32,322 bases of DNA from a virus. Within the stretch, counting starts at the first letter, position 1; each line of letters starts with the position of its first letter. The position numbers and the translations under genes were made by a program. Where the stretch lies: IMG/VR virus record IMGVR_UViG_3300008111_000087, positions 1-32,322 of that record. One strand, written 5' to 3'. Below are positions 12,601-32,322 of this stretch, one piece after another. The notes beneath the pieces are model-generated. The model saw only the letters and a program-made list of their open reading frames with translations, was not told the DNA's origin and did not search any database.

Positions 12601-12810
12601 ATGAATATTAATGAACTCTTAGCATGCGGAAAATGCTCAGCAAAAATGCTCGTGGATAGAGTATTCCTAACGCACGATCATCTTGAACTATATTGTATAA
12701 GATGTGGTAAAAGAGATATGTATCACAATCCACAAAAGTTTGGTGCAAAGATAAGATGGATAATGGAAGTAGAGAAGAGAAGAGCCAGAATAGCAGGCAA
12801 TCCTCTATAA
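12601..12810 (+). CDS. Zinc-ribbon protein, 69 aa
   Basis: Two CxxC knuckles (C9/C12 and C32/C35) separated by about 20 residues form a classic zinc ribbon, followed by a basic helix (EVEKRRARIAGN). Zinc binding is well supported; nucleic-acid or protein binding is inferred from the basic tail. The start has no Shine-Dalgarno but follows a strong extended -10 by 8 nt, so a leaderless mRNA is likely. It is the first gene of the replication segment. Confidence 0.75.
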   Translation: MNINELLACGKCSAKMLVDRVFLTHDHLELYCIRCGKRDMYHNPQKFGAKIRWIMEVEKRRARIAGNPL

Positions 12811-16284: not shown

Positions 16285-16935
16285 ATGTCAATTATAAAAG
16301 GACTCAAGAACATTGAAGCCGTTCTTGATAAAACAAAAGTAGAAAACAGCGGAGCCAAAGTAAATTGGCTAAAATTAGATGATGGCGAAAGCGTTCAAAT
16401 AAGATTCGTTAGCGAACTAGATGCAGACTCACCAAACTATGATGAAAAGCGTGGTCTTGCTATTGTAATTAGTGAACACACAAATCCAGAAGATTATAAA
16501 CGTAAGGCTGCTTGCACTGCAGATAGTCAAGGCAGATGCTTTGGTTGCGAAATGTATCGTAAAGAACCTAAGAGTGGCTGGAGAGCACGTCTTCGTTTCT
16601 ATTGCAACGTATTAGTAAACAATGGAACAGATGAACCAAAAGTAGCAGTATGGAGCATGGGTGTAAGCAAGAGTGCAACATTTAGCACAATTCGTGAATT
16701 TGCTGCAGACTCAAATAGCATCAGCAACATGGTTTGGAAACTAAAGAGAAATGGAAAAGGAACAGAAACAAACTATATCCTACTTCCAGGAACTCAAGAC
16801 TCAGAACCATTTAACTGGGGATCACAAGAAGCATTCAACTTAGATAAGGTTGTTCGTGAACTTCCTTATGCTGAACAAGAATCATTCTATCTAGGATTTA
16901 ATAATCCAACCACTACTGCAGCAGCAGAGTGGTAA
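16285..16935 (+). CDS. ssDNA-binding protein, T4 gp32-like with zinc site
   Basis: 216 residues with an excellent Shine-Dalgarno (AAGGAG). An OB-type region (VNWLKLDDGESVQIRFVSEL) is followed by a zinc site H65-x11-C77-x7-C85-x2-C88, close to the His-Cys-Cys-Cys zinc cluster of T4 gp32. Later strands (WRARLRFYCNVLVNNG, then KVAVWSMGVSKSATF) and a KRNGKGTETNYILLPG segment complete the core, and the end is polar with a final AAAEW. It should coat single-stranded DNA at the fork and pair with the helicase, primase and polymerase encoded beside it. A second, bacterial-type SSB gene lies at 29913. The gp32-like call is well supported by metal ligands and context. Confidence 0.85.
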   Translation: MSIIKGLKNIEAVLDKTKVENSGAKVNWLKLDDGESVQIRFVSELDADSPNYDEKRGLAIVISEHTNPEDYKRKAACTADSQGRCFGCEMYRKEPKSGWRARLRFYCNVLVNNGTDEPKVAVWSMGVSKSATFSTIREFAADSNSISNMVWKLKRNGKGTETNYILLPGTQDSEPFNWGSQEAFNLDKVVRELPYAEQESFYLGFNNPTTTAAAEW

Positions 16936-24150: not shown

Positions 24151-24664
24151 TTTAGTAAAACATTTAGACTTGGTAAATCAGGTTGCAGCAGAGTATCTTA
24201 AAGGATCTGATGCTTCTCAAATATCAAAAGATTTAGTTATACCACGTCAAAAAGTTTTAAACCTACTAAATGACTGGCGTTCAATGGTCTCTAATAACCA
24301 GGCCATTCATGCACGTGCTAAGGAAGCACTTGCTGGTGCTGACCAACATTACTCATCTTTAATTAAAAAAACATATGAAGTTATTGACGCTGCAGACTCT
24401 ACTGCAAATCTTACAGCCAAAACAACCGCTATTAAACTAATAGCAGATATTGAAAGTAAAAGACTTGAAATGCTACAAAAGGCAGGACTGCTAGATAATA
24501 AAGAAATAGCAGAACAAATTATTGAAATGGAAAGAAAGCAAGAAGTATTAATGAAGATATTAAAAGAAGTTGCCTCAAAACATCCAGAAGTCCGTGAAGA
24601 AATAATGCGTAGATTGTCTGAGATTCAAACGGAGGTAGTTATAATTGACTCCGACACCGATTGA
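24140..24664 (+). CDS. terS: Terminase small subunit (putative)
   Basis: 174 residues, overlapping the previous gene by 11 nt and the large terminase by 20 nt. Residues about 14-48 (QVAAEYLKGSDASQISKDLV, then RQKVLNLLNDWR) form a helix-turn-helix suited to pac/cos recognition. Residues 60-165 are long helices (AKTTAIKLIADIESKRLEML, IEMERKQEVLMKILKEVA) that would oligomerise, and the end (VVIIDSDTD) is acidic. Gene order directly before the large terminase supports the call. Confidence 0.8.
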   Translation: MNDDLVKHLDLVNQVAAEYLKGSDASQISKDLVIPRQKVLNLLNDWRSMVSNNQAIHARAKEALAGADQHYSSLIKKTYEVIDAADSTANLTAKTTAIKLIADIESKRLEMLQKAGLLDNKEIAEQIIEMERKQEVLMKILKEVASKHPEVREEIMRRLSEIQTEVVIIDSDTD

Positions 24665-26441
24665 TTTTAGTGACTTTATAGAGGCACTTGATCAAAGTCC
24701 ATTTGAAGAAGATCCTGTAGATGTAAGAACATTTGTTACTGGAAAAGATTATTTAAATCAACCAGAACTTTCTGAGTATCAATATACACTTGTAGAATGT
24801 ATGAGTCAAATTTTTAAAAAAGAAGATGTTGAAAGATGGCTAGGAAAGGAAAAGGGAAGTGACCATTATAAAAAATACACCAAGTCTGAAGTTATTCTTA
24901 TGTGTGGAAAAGGTAGTGGTAAAGATCATACTTCTACCATTGGCTGTGCTTATATTGTCTATAAACTTTTATGCCTCAAAGATCCATCGAGGTATTTTGG
25001 GAAACCATCGAACGATGCAATAGATTTAATTAACGTTGCAGTAAACGCACAACAAGCAAAGAACGTATTCTTTAAAGGATTTAAATCAAAGATTGAAGGC
25101 TCACCCTGGTTTGCGGGAAAGTATGAAGCAAAGGTAGATAACATAGAATTTAACAAAGCAATTACAGTTTATTCTGGACACTCAGAAAGAGAGTCTGCAG
25201 AAGGTTTAAACTTAATGCTTGCCGTTCTTGATGAAATTTCTGGATTTGCTATGGAAACAGGAACTGGAAACGATCAAGGAAAGACAGCAGATAACTTATA
25301 TAAAGCATTTAGAGGCTCTGTTGATTCACGTTTCCCAGACTTTGGAAAGGTAATTCTTCTTTCATTTCCAAGATACAAGGGTGACTTTATTTCACAAAGA
25401 TATGAAGATGTTGTTGCAGAAAAAGAAACTGGTCTTAGAACACACGAATTCATAATTAACCCAACACTTTCTGATGATGATCCAACAAATAAATTTACAA
25501 TTGAGTGGGAAGAGGATAACATTCTTAGTTACAAATATCCTGGAGTATTTGCATTAAGAAGACCTACATGGGAAATGAATCCCACAAGAAGCATTGAAGA
25601 CTTTAAAATAGCATTCTTTACAGATCAGTCAGATGCATTAATGCGTTTTGCTTGTATGCCTACAGTTTCATCAGATGCATTCTTTAAGGATAGAACTAAA
25701 GTCGAAAAGGCACTGTCAAGACATAACCCATTAGACAACAATAGAAGATTTGATTTTAATTTTAAACCACAAGAGGATGTTGAATATTTTGTTCACGCTG
25801 ACTTAGCACAAAAACATGATAAGTGTGCAGTATCTATTGCACATGTTGAAAAGTGGGTTAGTGTTCAGTCATTCAATAACTATGAACAGGTTATGCCATT
25901 AGTTGTTGTTGATGCTATCGCATACTGGGAGCCAAGACGTGAAGGTCCAGTTGATCTAAGTGAAGTTAAGAATTGGATTATTGATTTAAGAAGACAGGGT
26001 TTTAATCTTGGACTAGTTACATTTGATCGTTGGCAATCCTTTGATATTCAAAATGAATTAAAACAGGTGGGTATAAAAACTGAAACACTATCTGTTGCAA
26101 AAAAGCATTATGAAGACTTGGCAATGCTTGTTTACGAAGAAAGAGTTGAAGCACCACATATAGACATACTTTTAGAAGAAATGTTTGAATTAAGAATCAT
26201 GGGTAATAGAGTAGACCATCCTCGTAAAAAGTCAAAGGACTTGGCAGATGCTATGTGTGGCTCTGTTTATAATGCTATTAGCAGGTCACAAAAGGACAGA
26301 ATAAAAGAAGTAGAGGTTCATACATGGTCAAGAGGTGGGGTAGACAATGACTCTATCAGAGATGATGACTACGGATATGAAAAAGAAAGAATTGCTGGAA
26401 GGTCACTAAACAACTGGAATGGTGGGTTCAGATTGATATGA
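24645..26441 (+). CDS. terL: Terminase large subunit
   Basis: 598 residues. The TTG start follows GGAGG by 9 nt and overlaps the small subunit. The ATPase has Walker A CGKGSGKD (87-94) and Walker B MLAVLDEIS with D196/E197. The C-terminal RNase-H-type nuclease has D386 in FVHADLAQKHDKCA, D461 in VTFDRWQS and D532/D535 in KDLADAMCG. It pumps DNA into the prohead and cuts the concatemer. Unusually, portal and capsid genes do not follow within this window. Assignment is secure from motifs and length. Confidence 0.95.
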   Translation: MTPTPIDFSDFIEALDQSPFEEDPVDVRTFVTGKDYLNQPELSEYQYTLVECMSQIFKKEDVERWLGKEKGSDHYKKYTKSEVILMCGKGSGKDHTSTIGCAYIVYKLLCLKDPSRYFGKPSNDAIDLINVAVNAQQAKNVFFKGFKSKIEGSPWFAGKYEAKVDNIEFNKAITVYSGHSERESAEGLNLMLAVLDEISGFAMETGTGNDQGKTADNLYKAFRGSVDSRFPDFGKVILLSFPRYKGDFISQRYEDVVAEKETGLRTHEFIINPTLSDDDPTNKFTIEWEEDNILSYKYPGVFALRRPTWEMNPTRSIEDFKIAFFTDQSDALMRFACMPTVSSDAFFKDRTKVEKALSRHNPLDNNRRFDFNFKPQEDVEYFVHADLAQKHDKCAVSIAHVEKWVSVQSFNNYEQVMPLVVVDAIAYWEPRREGPVDLSEVKNWIIDLRRQGFNLGLVTFDRWQSFDIQNELKQVGIKTETLSVAKKHYEDLAMLVYEERVEAPHIDILLEEMFELRIMGNRVDHPRKKSKDLADAMCGSVYNAISRSQKDRIKEVEVHTWSRGGVDNDSIRDDDYGYEKERIAGRSLNNWNGGFRLI

Positions 26442-26806
26442 GCGATATGGAAGACTTCAGTGAAGAACAGAAAGAATATGTTAATAGATTTTTAGAATTA
26501 ATGATTGAATTAGGTGCTATAGAAATTTCGGGGTATGACTCAAAAATAGACTCTTTTACATATACCATTACTCCTAAGATGAAAGAACTTATTCCAGAGT
26601 TCTTTGAAGAACATATGAAATTTATAAATCAAATAGCCTTTGATCTATGGAATCAGGGATATGTAGAAATTAAATTTGAGGACGAAGGTCCTTTGGTAAT
26701 GCTTAAAGAGGACATAGACTATCCAGCCATACTTGATGGTTTAAAAGATGAAGAAAGAATGTTTTTAGAGAACATGCTCAACTACGATAACGGTGGTATA
26801 ATTTAG
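26438..26806 (+). CDS. Unknown acidic protein after terminase, 122 aa
   Basis: ATGA overlap with the terminase stop. Acidic, helical first half (EEQKEYVNRFLELMIELGAI) with an ITPKMKELIPEFFEEHMKFI helix and a strand pair QGYVEIKFEDEGPLVMLKED in the middle; this looks like a winged-helix-sized alpha/beta domain that could contact proteins rather than DNA, given its charge. No family recognised. Its last codons contain the promoter for the following gene. Confidence 0.6.
   Translation: MSDMEDFSEEQKEYVNRFLELMIELGAIEISGYDSKIDSFTYTITPKMKELIPEFFEEHMKFINQIAFDLWNQGYVEIKFEDEGPLVMLKEDIDYPAILDGLKDEERMFLENMLNYDNGGII
26794..26802 (+). promoter_or_regulatory. Extended -10 promoter for leaderless mRNA (TGGTATAAT)
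   Basis: Identical nonamer to the element at 12584. It ends 6 nt before the ATG at 26809, with TTAGTT between and no Shine-Dalgarno. It overlaps the end of the preceding coding sequence, so transcription of the next gene can start at its own ATG. Confidence 0.65.
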
Positions 26807-26808
26807 TT

Positions 26809-27894
26809 ATGCCTTACGATATTAAGAGAAACTATGGTGGTTGCAAGGGTTATGCAGTAGTTGGTCCATCTGGATCACACGGATGCCACCCATCACGTAA
26901 AAAGGCAATCGAGCAACAAAGAGCCTTGTATGCTGCTGAAGCACAGGCTAAAAAATCACATGATGATGTAATTACTAATGAAGATACCCCAAATACAAAG
27001 CCACATTCTTTAGAAGAGTGTGAAGACAAAGAAAATTGTCCAGAGCATATGGGTAAAAAATCTCCATGTTGGGATGGATATGTGCAACGTGGTATGAAAC
27101 CTGGAAAAGATGGAAAGATGGTTCCAAACTGTGTTCCAGTAACTAAATCAGATTGCTGCCCAGACATGACAAAAGCAGAAGGATGGGAAGGTCAGTCTTT
27201 ATATGAAGAATTACCAGAACCAGAAAAAGTTTTAGCAAATAAATTATTAGAATTAGCAGATGAAGTAGGTCCACTAGATAAAGCAGAAGGAATCTGGGTT
27301 GGATATGTTGATGGTAGTCAAAACGACAACCTATCTATAGGAATTAAATGTGGCAATTGTGCACTTCACAAATCAGAAAATTCTTGTATGATTTTATCTA
27401 TTCCAATTGAAGAAAATGGTAATTGTAGATTTGCTGTAGTTCCAAATTCTAGAGTAAATACAGACATGATAATGGATGATGAAATGACAAAGAGATCAAT
27501 AGAAGATTTAGATTTAAGACCAACAGAGTCTATGGCAAATAATGCACGTAGAGGGCTAGAATTAAGACGTAAGTTTGGAAGAGGTGGCACAGCAGTTGGT
27601 GTTGCTCGTGCAAGAGACTTAGCAAATAGAAAAGAATTAAGTCCAGAAACAGTAGCAAGAATGTACTCTTTCTTTTCTCGTCATGAAGTAGATAAAAAGG
27701 GTAAAGATTGGAATAACTCAGAAAGACCATCCAATGGAAAAATTGCATGGCTTCTTTGGGGTGGAGACTCTGGATATGCATGGGCTAGATCAAAATGGAA
27801 TGCTATACAAAGAGTTAGAGCACAAAAATCAAACGACCCAGTCTGGTATGGATCAGCGTTTGAACTTAAAAAAGATATTGACAACGGCTTCTAA
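26809..27894 (+). CDS. Cysteine-rich multi-module protein, probably head-associated
   Basis: 361 residues built of several small modules. Residues 8-45 (GCKGYAVV ... CHPSRKKA, then a helix) match a motif common at the front of phage head/prohead proteins. Residues 87-110 (CWDGYVQRGMKPGKDGK, then MVPNCVP) are a second such short motif. Residues 160-212 hold a quartet C181-x2-C184 ... C193 ... C206, resembling a small HiPIP-like or metal-binding fold. Residues 240-335 (RRGLELRRKFGRGGTAVGVA, then RHEVDKKG and IAWLLWGGDSGYAW) resemble the DUF5872-type domain found in phage and plasmid proteins. Position after the terminase suggests a role in capsid assembly. No protease catalytic site can be assigned. 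Start: ATG directly after a leaderless-type promoter. Confidence 0.65.
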   Translation: MPYDIKRNYGGCKGYAVVGPSGSHGCHPSRKKAIEQQRALYAAEAQAKKSHDDVITNEDTPNTKPHSLEECEDKENCPEHMGKKSPCWDGYVQRGMKPGKDGKMVPNCVPVTKSDCCPDMTKAEGWEGQSLYEELPEPEKVLANKLLELADEVGPLDKAEGIWVGYVDGSQNDNLSIGIKCGNCALHKSENSCMILSIPIEENGNCRFAVVPNSRVNTDMIMDDEMTKRSIEDLDLRPTESMANNARRGLELRRKFGRGGTAVGVARARDLANRKELSPETVARMYSFFSRHEVDKKGKDWNNSERPSNGKIAWLLWGGDSGYAWARSKWNAIQRVRAQKSNDPVWYGSAFELKKDIDNGF

Positions 27895-29644: not shown

Positions 29645-29913
29645 TGTATACAGAGCAAATGCAAAAAGCATTTAAGTCAATTCCAGCACCTAAAGAATTT
29701 AGAGCAGCAATTGTTGACTACGATACTTTTATAACTATAAGATTCTATGAAAGTCAGTGGAGACACTACACAGAGTCAGAAAGATTTAAGTGTGTTCAAT
29801 ACATGATGAATGTAAAGAAGGCACTTGAAAGTCTAGGAGCGGTTGTGGCAATTGACCCAGTCCTAGATTTAGAAACACCAGAAGATAGAGCACAGAGAAG
29901 AAGGAGAAAATAA
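29644..29913 (+). CDS. Unknown small protein before ssb, 89 aa
   Basis: ATG 29644 overlaps the WhiB stop (TGATG) and the stop overlaps the ssb ATG (TAATG), so it is coupled on both sides. The sequence has a strand pair with Asp and Tyr (AAIVDYDTFITIRFYESQW), a helix (SERFKCVQYMMNVKKALESL) and a very basic end (EDRAQRRRRK). This looks like a small RNA- or DNA-binding domain, but no family is recognised. Confidence 0.6.
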   Translation: MYTEQMQKAFKSIPAPKEFRAAIVDYDTFITIRFYESQWRHYTESERFKCVQYMMNVKKALESLGAVVAIDPVLDLETPEDRAQRRRRK

Positions 29914-30302
29914 TGCCACAAGTAATAACAGCAGTAGGAAATCTAGTTAAAGACCCAGAAGTAAAAACATTTGAAAAGGGTGCCTTAACAAAGTTACGCA
30001 TCGCATGCACAGACAGAATGTCTGATGGCAATGGTGGTTGGAAAGACGGAGATACAAATTTTTATGATGTAGCCGTCTGGAAAAGCCTTGGCGAATATGC
30101 AGCATCTACCTTGAAAAAGGGAGATAAAGTAATTGTTCAAGGTAAGATGAAATACCGTGAATTTAAAAAGAACGATGGATCCAATGGTCATGCATACGAA
30201 ATCGATGCATCAGATCTTGGTGTATATCTGACTAAAAAAACTGCTAATCCAGTAGCAGCAACAGTAGTAGCAGCACCAGGTGCAGCAACTGTTTGGGGCT
30301 AA
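29913..30302 (+). CDS. ssb: Single-stranded DNA-binding protein, bacterial SSB type
   Basis: 129 residues. The OB fold is clear from QVITAVGNLVKDPEVK, LTKLRIACTDR, FYDVAVWKSLGEYAASTLKK and GDKVIVQGKMKYREFK. The usual C-terminal DDDIPF-type acidic tip is missing; the protein ends in an Ala/Pro-rich stretch and TVWG, so it may not recruit host repair proteins the standard way. It is the second ssDNA-binding protein in this window beside the gp32-like one at 16285. Followed by a hairpin/terminator. Confidence 0.93.
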   Translation: MPQVITAVGNLVKDPEVKTFEKGALTKLRIACTDRMSDGNGGWKDGDTNFYDVAVWKSLGEYAASTLKKGDKVIVQGKMKYREFKKNDGSNGHAYEIDASDLGVYLTKKTANPVAATVVAAPGAATVWG

Positions 30303-30853: not shown

Positions 30854-32322
30854 TTGTCCAAAAGAACTAAAATAAGAATAATGCTTTTAGCCCCCATGCT
30901 TTTAGCATTATTCTTTTCTTATGTGCCACAAACTGCTAATGCAGCCGCTGCACCATGTGATACCTATCAGGTAAACGGTGGCGACCAAGCATTCTTGATG
31001 AATTTAAATACTCCACTTAAATGGGGAGATACAGTTTATACAAATAATATTTATGTAAGTCCAAAAGGAACTATTACATTTGGTGTAGGAGATTATACAT
31101 TTTGGGACTATCCACCTACTCCGTCTATATCAATTGGATCTTTTGATTATCATGCATTTCCAAATAGTGCAGCAGGTGGATGGAGTCCAGGATGGGGTTA
31201 TGGAAATAATTTATATGTTAGATATGGATCTACGGCAACTTCTATATGTGTAGATTGGAAGGTAATGGTATGGGGACAAAGTTCTGGAAATCCAATCTAT
31301 ATAAGAATGTTAGCAGAAGTAAATCCAATAAATTATACATGGACGCCAACTTATGAAGTAAGTGCTAACGCACCTGCTAACGCAAGATATGGTGCTAGAT
31401 ATACTCAGAATGGGCCAATTCAACCATTAAGTGTTCAAACTATTACTCAGCCACCAGTAGCAAGTCCAACACCTTCTCCAACTGCTACACCAACTCCTAC
31501 ACCAACTCCTACACCAACTCCTACGGAAACCCCTACACCAACGCCTACACCAACAGAGACACCAACACCTACGCCAACACCTACACCAACGCCTACAGAA
31601 ACTTTAACACCAACCCCTGAGCCTACTCCAACTCAAACTCAAGATCCTGATCCAGTTCAGCCAACTCAAGATCCTGAGCCAGTTGTCGAACCAGAACCAG
31701 AAGTGACACAGGAACCAGAACCAGAAGTGACAGAAGAGCCGCAACCAGAACCTGTAATCGAACCTTCACCTGAACCAACTCCTTTAGAAGAAATTATATC
31801 AGTTGAAGAAGAAATTAATAATGCTATTGATGAATTAATAGTTAATGAAGAAGAAATTTCTAATGAGCAATTAGAAAATATTACAGAATTATTATTGGAA
31901 AACTATGAAGTAAATGAAGTAATGCCAGTAGCAGAATTATTAGATAATTTATCTGACGAACAAGTATTAGAACTATTAGAACAATTAGATGAAAATCAAA
32001 TTATTGAATACCGTGAAGGTGTCGAATTAGAAGCAGGTGTTGCTGTTGTGTTTGAGCAACTATCAGACCCTGCAGCCTTAATAGGAGAGTTATTCTCAGA
32101 CCCAAGTCAAACCTTAGAGGCACTTGGTCAATTAGGTGCTGACATGACAGAAGAAGAAAGAGAAGACTCACAAGATGTAGTTGTCGCAGCAGTTGTAGCA
32201 ACTCAGGTTGCAACAATGGCTATGGCAATGGCTCCACCAAGTGCACCAAGTGCACCAGCACCAAGTTCACCACAAGGTCCAAGTGGACCAGGCTCACAGC
32301 CTAAGAACGAGTTTGATGCTGG
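30854..32322 (+). CDS. Secreted Thr-Pro-rich surface-type protein, 3' end outside window
   Basis: TTG start with GGAGA eight nt upstream; 489 codons are open to the right edge, so the gene is partial. Residues 1-32 form a Sec signal peptide: basic start (SKRTKIR), hydrophobic core ([15 protein letters not shown]) and a TANA-A cleavage site. The mature part opens with an about 170-residue aromatic, Gly-rich domain (segments [34 protein letters not shown]), probably a beta sandwich. A long Thr-Pro linker (about 204-263) and Glu-Pro repeats follow, then an acidic helical region with repeated Asp-Glu-Gln-Val/Leu units, and an Ala/Pro/Ser-rich stretch. Such architecture is that of a cell-envelope or exported adhesin-like protein. 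Not a virion protein by its signal; function unknown. Confidence 0.75.
31463..31640 (+). repeat. Thr-Pro coding tandem repeat
   Basis: Imperfect repeats of ACACCAACTCCT and variants (codons for Thr-Pro) inside the secreted-protein gene, interrupted by Thr-Glu-Thr. It encodes an extended, probably glycosylation-prone linker. Third-position variants (ACA/ACG, CCT/CCA) show it is not a recent perfect expansion, except 31486-31524, where near-identical units occur. Confidence 0.8.
31688..31732 (+). repeat. 24-bp direct repeat coding Glu-Pro-rich unit
   Basis: A 21-nt sequence starting GAACCAGAACCAGAAG occurs at 31688 and again at 31712, with a 24-nt period, encoding EPEPEVT twice. A perfect duplication inside the same gene, pointing to recent slippage or unequal exchange. 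Confidence 0.75.

Follow-up and report, generated by a model that had tools for sequence, protein, structure and literature searches.

A shuffled modular protein encoded downstream of a phage terminase carries a putative metal module resembling the smallest HiPIPs

HiPIPs are bacterial electron carriers. In PMC7462912, PioC of Rhodopseudomonas palustris (PDB 6xyv) is described as the smallest HiPIP, the cysteines of its cluster are given as Cys22, Cys25, Cys34 and Cys47, and the tryptophan immediately before the fourth cysteine (Cys4-1) is called well conserved in HiPIPs. In phages, the tail-tip protein gpL of lambda carries a 4Fe-4S domain, according to PMC11101478. No description of a HiPIP module in a phage protein was found in a search of open-licence literature that covered passages of PMC10611076, PMC11101478, PMC10975493, PMC10654088 and PMC7462912. 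Here, we analyse a viral gene whose product contains a segment with HiPIP-like cysteine spacing.

The post-terminase locus

The window, that is, the whole stretch of DNA analysed, comprises the 32,322 bases of one virus record, in which tail genes are followed by replication genes, the terminase, the gene under study, small ORFs, a gene for a single-strand DNA-binding protein (SSB) and an M23 peptidase gene. The terminase large subunit gene (24645..26441, + strand; phrog_17415, E 2e-13) is a conserved upstream neighbour, and the interval is occupied by a small conserved gene (26438..26806, +) for which no family exceeded a cut-off. The gene under study starts with ATG and encodes 361 aa (26809..27894, +), exactly the ORF proposed in the first-pass annotation, and all the strings quoted there are found in the translation. 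Among 79 loci encoding module C (described below) and having enough upstream sequence, a terminase homologue lies at most 3.5 kb upstream in 69; the terminase is farther away in five of the remaining 10, and none of the window's neighbours is present in the other five (L155, L156, L160, L162 and L164).

A TATAAT box at 26797..26802 (+), 6 bp upstream of the ATG, belongs to a probable leaderless promoter, from which the modular protein would be expressed by itself. TATAAT occurs at the identical place in 46, and TANNNT in 48, of 56 upstream regions of relatives, which differ from each other by at least one base and may include near-identical ones; the same placement of TANNNT is seen at 3 of the 35 ORF starts listed for the window. 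The earlier remark on a leaderless promoter thus holds as a sequence pattern. Two other window ORFs, starting at 12601 and 15053 (+), have TANNNT at -12 in the same leaderless-type arrangement.

The gene had also been said to lie where a head protein should be. This is half correct. The terminase does precede the gene, yet a partial match to the S78 prohead protease (PF04586; approximately profile positions 93–159 of 165) was found in a different gene, far from the target, in 8 of the 12 records examined. In three of these eight records, the protease gene is preceded by a portal-like gene and followed by a capsid-like or capsid-sized gene, the portal-like and capsid-like names being our own reading. 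The same 12-record search found no S78 protease in the window record or in L155, and a phrog_9232 portal search gave matches in two of the 12 records and none in the window record. This record is a fragment, and the 28 of its proteins that were scanned against PHROGs had no portal or capsid match. According to Pfam, the target protein itself has no protease, portal or capsid domain; its identification as a maturation protease was rejected, since no Pfam match falls within it and the S78 matches sit in other genes.

Two different single-strand DNA-binding proteins are encoded in the window, at 16285-16935 (phrog_9721) and 29913-30302 (phrog_44), both on the + strand. After the M23 peptidase gene, an open protein of 489 aa with a long TP-rich repeat (30854-32320, +) is cut by the window end. 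By eye, it has a signal-peptide-like start, homologues occupy the same place in several relatives, and it is possibly secreted or wall-related.

Modular architecture and module exchange

As first described, the protein is cysteine-rich; it contains 12 cysteines in total, and a linker motif, C71-x5-CP-x-H80 with C116-C117, had been overlooked. Module A (26809..26958, +; residues 1-50) bears GCKGYAVV..GCHPSRKKA with C12 and C26, is predicted to form a strand-strand-helix block (pLDDT 80-97 in the predicted structure) and is N-terminal in relatives. The linker motif (27019..27048, +) and C116-C117 (27154-27159) may form a further metal site; among 31 distinct genes with A and B, C-x5-CP-x-H is found in 22 and CCPD or CCPE in 18. 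Module B (27046..27144, +; approximately residues 80-112) comprises CWDGY..VPNCVP with C87 and C108 and two predicted strands, and also occurs in the haloarchaeal virus HCTV-1 (tblastn E 8e-5). The HiPIP-like module C (27229..27471, +; residues 141-221) contains the four-cysteine unit, whose residues are C181, C184, C193 and C206, as stated previously. Module D (27502..27837, +; approximately residues 232-343; HEVDK..PSNGKIAWLLWGGD) is all-helical, with pLDDT 84-98 in the predicted structure. No clear fold match to module D was found in the PDB, and the best match of the full model to the PDB (Foldseek, VIA-align) reached Z 4.9, within a helical domain.

Searched against Pfam and NCBIfam at E up to 1, the whole protein had no match, and PHROGs matched parts of it: phrog_2859 aligned with module D only (E 2.5e-20; residues 233-329 with positions 160-260 of 740), and phrog_9737 and phrog_36547 reached up to module B. 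All three are families of unknown function, and no single known family covers the whole protein. We discarded the idea that a single motif is repeated in modules A, B and C: MAFFT placed B onto C, yet the hhalign probabilities were 0.07% for A-B, 0.17% for A-C and 2.6% for B-C.

The proposal that the protein is a mosaic is strongly supported, as every module is also found apart from the others in further viral proteins. In module searches against the ORFs of the fetched loci, the four modules occur apart and in many orders, with 26 module strings in 96 loci where the terminase or the small pre-target gene has a homologue. These strings include ACD (22), CTSD (16), AB+CD (9), ABED (4) and ABCD (3), where '+' denotes separate genes and some strings are clipped by contig ends. 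Here, E denotes a module found in L002, T occupies the place at which Pfam identifies Hva1_TUDOR in L010, and S is, in our reading, a DUF6582 domain; Pfam DUF6582 was found in 3 of 24 other proteins, hand-picked for containing C or D. By eye, a protein of the protease region in L209 has a stretch resembling module T.

Module C is present in 83 of the 96 loci and module E in 10, neither is present in 3, and none has both. These loci combine 25 from a whole-protein scan with 71 from a scan baited with module C, and neither the counts of upstream terminases nor those of module strings are independent, because seven contigs came from both scans (L001/L086, L005/L100, L006/L114, L008/L105, L009/L147, L011/L124 and L012/L143). 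Restricted to the 25 whole-protein-scan loci, the counts are 12 with C, 10 with E, 3 lacking both and none with both. Ten relatives at the same locus have E and lack C, so the core role of the protein does not require module C. Judged by sequence, the pieces are separate modules that, at a single post-terminase locus, have been acquired or lost, divided among genes and exchanged. A set of unannotated phage proteins thereby gains a readable grammar of about seven modules, in which the candidate metal site is directly testable.

Fusions link the same modules to head proteins. Among the 24 hand-picked proteins with C or D, we found the S78 protease in 7, Phage_capsid in 5, Phage_portal_2 in 3 and Phage_portal in 1 (below the cut-off), as well as zinc-ribbon models in 3. 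Similarly, the 50 listed viral models resembling our predicted structure include six named prohead protease, five XkdF and two portal; one similar viral model with module D is named DNA-binding Dps. Among cultured phages, Roseobacter phage CRP-831 has a head protein with module D. L155 encodes a protein of 1000 aa that contains both C and D, located between the genes for the portal (phrog_9232, E 2.8e-34) and the major head protein (phrog_3922, E 4.5e-10), with others intervening; its N-terminal part looks protease-like by eye, yet no protease family matched. These fusions to proteases, portals and capsid proteins only suggest that the target is a head protein.

Two large viral proteins carry module D in other company: a 1974-aa protein (L061:4753-10674) with ADP-ribosyltransferase and zeta-toxin-like domains, and a 1072-aa protein (L072:5299-8514) with a ferritin-like domain and weak TUDOR and protease matches.

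Module C compared with HiPIPs

Module C was confirmed in at least 574 stretches, of 599 candidates among the matches listed, in one viral scan. The genome-contig scan gave 41 stretches with two relatives, both on short MAG contigs, one of which has two copies in adjacent genes. In phage DSL-LC01, module C was recognized, by eye and by sequence search, at the C-terminal end of a protein that is a capsid maturation protease by its GenBank name; a search with this piece found no other phage record at E up to 1. In L166 (1897-2651), two adjoining small genes each encode a module-C-like domain; the second ends in a HiPIP-like CKLW and has relatives in 10 viral loci.

None of the four cysteines varies across 19 dereplicated module-C rows (19 of 19) or across a wider set of rows (30 of 30), and G154, Y166, N172, G178 and P212 are likewise invariant in the latter. 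The cysteine spacing, C-x2-C-x8-C-x12-C, is that of PioC (Cys22/25/34/47) and of L170/L171. Searched against the PDB, the single module-C sequence had PioC as the best of three matches (E 0.014), only one of which is a HiPIP, and with an 11-row profile the stronger of two matches was again PioC (E 0.011), the other not being a HiPIP. A 15-row profile gave four matches among 177,635 PDB sequences, all HiPIPs (E 0.005, 0.0051, 0.1 and 0.36), and the protein of a second viral clade gave two, again both HiPIPs (E 0.0058 and 0.77). Comparison by hhalign with 22 bacterial HiPIPs gave probabilities of 92-96% and E-values of 6e-7 to 3e-9, which refer to one chosen profile pair and not to a database; these 22 are from one phylum, and 11 of 33 HiPIP loci, in which the motif expression found nothing, were left out. 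None of 200 cysteine-preserving permutations, nor any of 300 in a second set run against the 96% comparison, reached the profile score.

Beyond the cysteines, the glycine found two residues before Cys4 in HiPIPs is present in 22 of the 30 module-C rows. The tryptophan at Cys4-1 is absent from all 30 and present in 22 of 22 bacterial HiPIPs, and an aromatic residue at Cys4+2/+3 is found in 19 of 30 rows, including F208 of the window protein, compared with 22 of 22. No module-C row passed the cut-off of Pfam HIPIP (PF01355); one of the 19 matched at E 0.032, and the window protein had no match to this model. Other Pfam families touch more of the 19 rows, namely YhiY (8), DUF3716 (7) and CTD5 (3), with best E-values of 0.006-0.02. 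Going by their descriptions, none of the six Pfam families touched by module-C rows, DUF3716 and DUF7479 among them, is zinc-binding. The best PHROG match of module C had E 0.014.

Structure prediction for module C reached a confidence of 69.4 in one model and 49-53 in the other four. The first of these, a weak template-free model, aligned with HiPIPs 1b0y and 1eyt at Z 2.5 (rmsd 3.9-4.0, 50 residues aligned); Z values were obtained for the eight chains ranked highest by Foldseek, of which only these two HiPIPs exceeded Z 2. Foldseek itself found no meaningful PDB match for module C, returning one match at E 8.8.

The designation HiPIP-like is supported by sequence profiles and only weakly by structure; one conserved HiPIP aromatic has been lost and another is retained in some rows. 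In the profile and permutation results, the resemblance of module C to the smallest HiPIPs extends past the cysteines, and we regard the two as very probably homologous. Judged on sequence, module C is a diverged HiPIP variant and a putative metal module, and we lean towards its binding an Fe-S cluster.

Proposed role and comparison with known systems

We prefer, at a probability of about 0.5, to read the protein as a modular accessory component of a tailed phage that probably acts in or at the head of procapsids or virions and whose metal module derives from a HiPIP; for the association with head or procapsid by itself, the odds appear even. The four cysteines would ligate a [4Fe-4S] cluster, and a segment with otherwise little fixed structure would fold about it. 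Because the Cys4-1 tryptophan is gone, such a cluster would more probably serve as a structural pin or as a site of altered potential than in classical electron transfer, and we have low confidence in a redox role. Module D may be the core through which the module string is attached to head proteins, with A, B and C, or E, T and S in their stead, as interchangeable attachments. It is highly improbable that phages use a HiPIP-type [4Fe-4S] domain as a swappable, redox- or iron-responsive part of their head assembly proteins, through which the redox or iron status of the host would adjust capsid maturation or packaging.

Module C could instead bind zinc on a HiPIP-derived scaffold or form disulfides in the virion, making the protein a structural mosaic that has small metal sites but no Fe-S function. 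The missing shielding tryptophan (30 of 30 rows), the second cysteine-histidine motif in the same protein and the zinc-ribbon models in 3 of 24 fusion proteins agree with this; the HiPIP spacing, the permutation-backed similarity beyond the cysteines, the PDB matches to HiPIPs and the lack, going by their descriptions, of a zinc-binding model among the six touched Pfam families argue against it, and we consider it unlikely. A convergent cysteine pattern, with module C unrelated to HiPIPs, is decidedly less probable still. It would fit the weak single-sequence match (E 0.014), the failure to pass any Pfam cut-off where other families touch more rows, and the weak structural evidence (model confidence 69.4, Foldseek E 8.8, Z 2.5), but not the permutations, of which 0 of 200 and 0 of 300 reached the profile score, nor the broad profile, whose four PDB matches are all HiPIPs, nor the second viral clade, which finds HiPIPs independently.

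The head location competes with a different placement, in which the protein serves in the infected cell and not in the virion, by regulating, by taking over the host or by supporting replication, has a promoter to itself and uses its modules as general phage interaction domains. We consider this somewhat unlikely. The conserved leaderless-type promoter points in this direction, as do the nearby SSB and M23 peptidase genes with the protease block elsewhere, and the occurrence of module D with ADP-ribosyltransferase and zeta-toxin domains (L061) and in a Dps-named protein. However, module D partners include S78 proteases, capsid proteins and portals, the 50 similar models include the 6 prohead protease, 5 XkdF and 2 portal entries, and the L155 protein is located between portal and capsid genes.

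For the preferred reading of a head-associated accessory protein with a HiPIP-derived module, the closest counterparts are PioC and PF01355. Module C shares with them the C-x2-C-x8-C-x12-C arrangement and profile similarity across the cysteine region, including the glycine two before Cys4. It differs in being part of a phage mosaic protein with no signal peptide discernible by eye, in lacking the Cys4-1 tryptophan (30 of 30 rows) and, in 11 of 30, the following aromatic, and in having an N-terminal GP.DK..G.WVGY segment. A GenBank 'High potential iron-sulfur protein' of DSL-LC01 (P0002) and six Manatee Spring phage records has a similar CxNC start, but its spacing is different and it has extra cysteines. 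It sits among virion genes in DSL-LC01 and in the one spring record with named neighbours. Its match to module C spans only 12 columns (20% probability) and its match to HiPIPs 20 columns (56%), and this name was set aside as proof, being a weaker HiPIP match than module C. Phage proteases, portals and capsid proteins, like phrog_2859, share module D, whereas domains of these three kinds are absent from the window protein. Lambda gpL, as presented in PMC11101478, has a 4Fe-4S domain in a phage structural protein and serves as a comparison for the structural-pin reading; unlike the location proposed here, it is in the tail tip, and no relation to module C is claimed. A diverged HiPIP module that recurs in environmental phage contigs, within proteins that also bear head-associated modules, would make Fe-S chemistry a part of phage assembly, and the finding is a variation on these known kinds rather than a new system.
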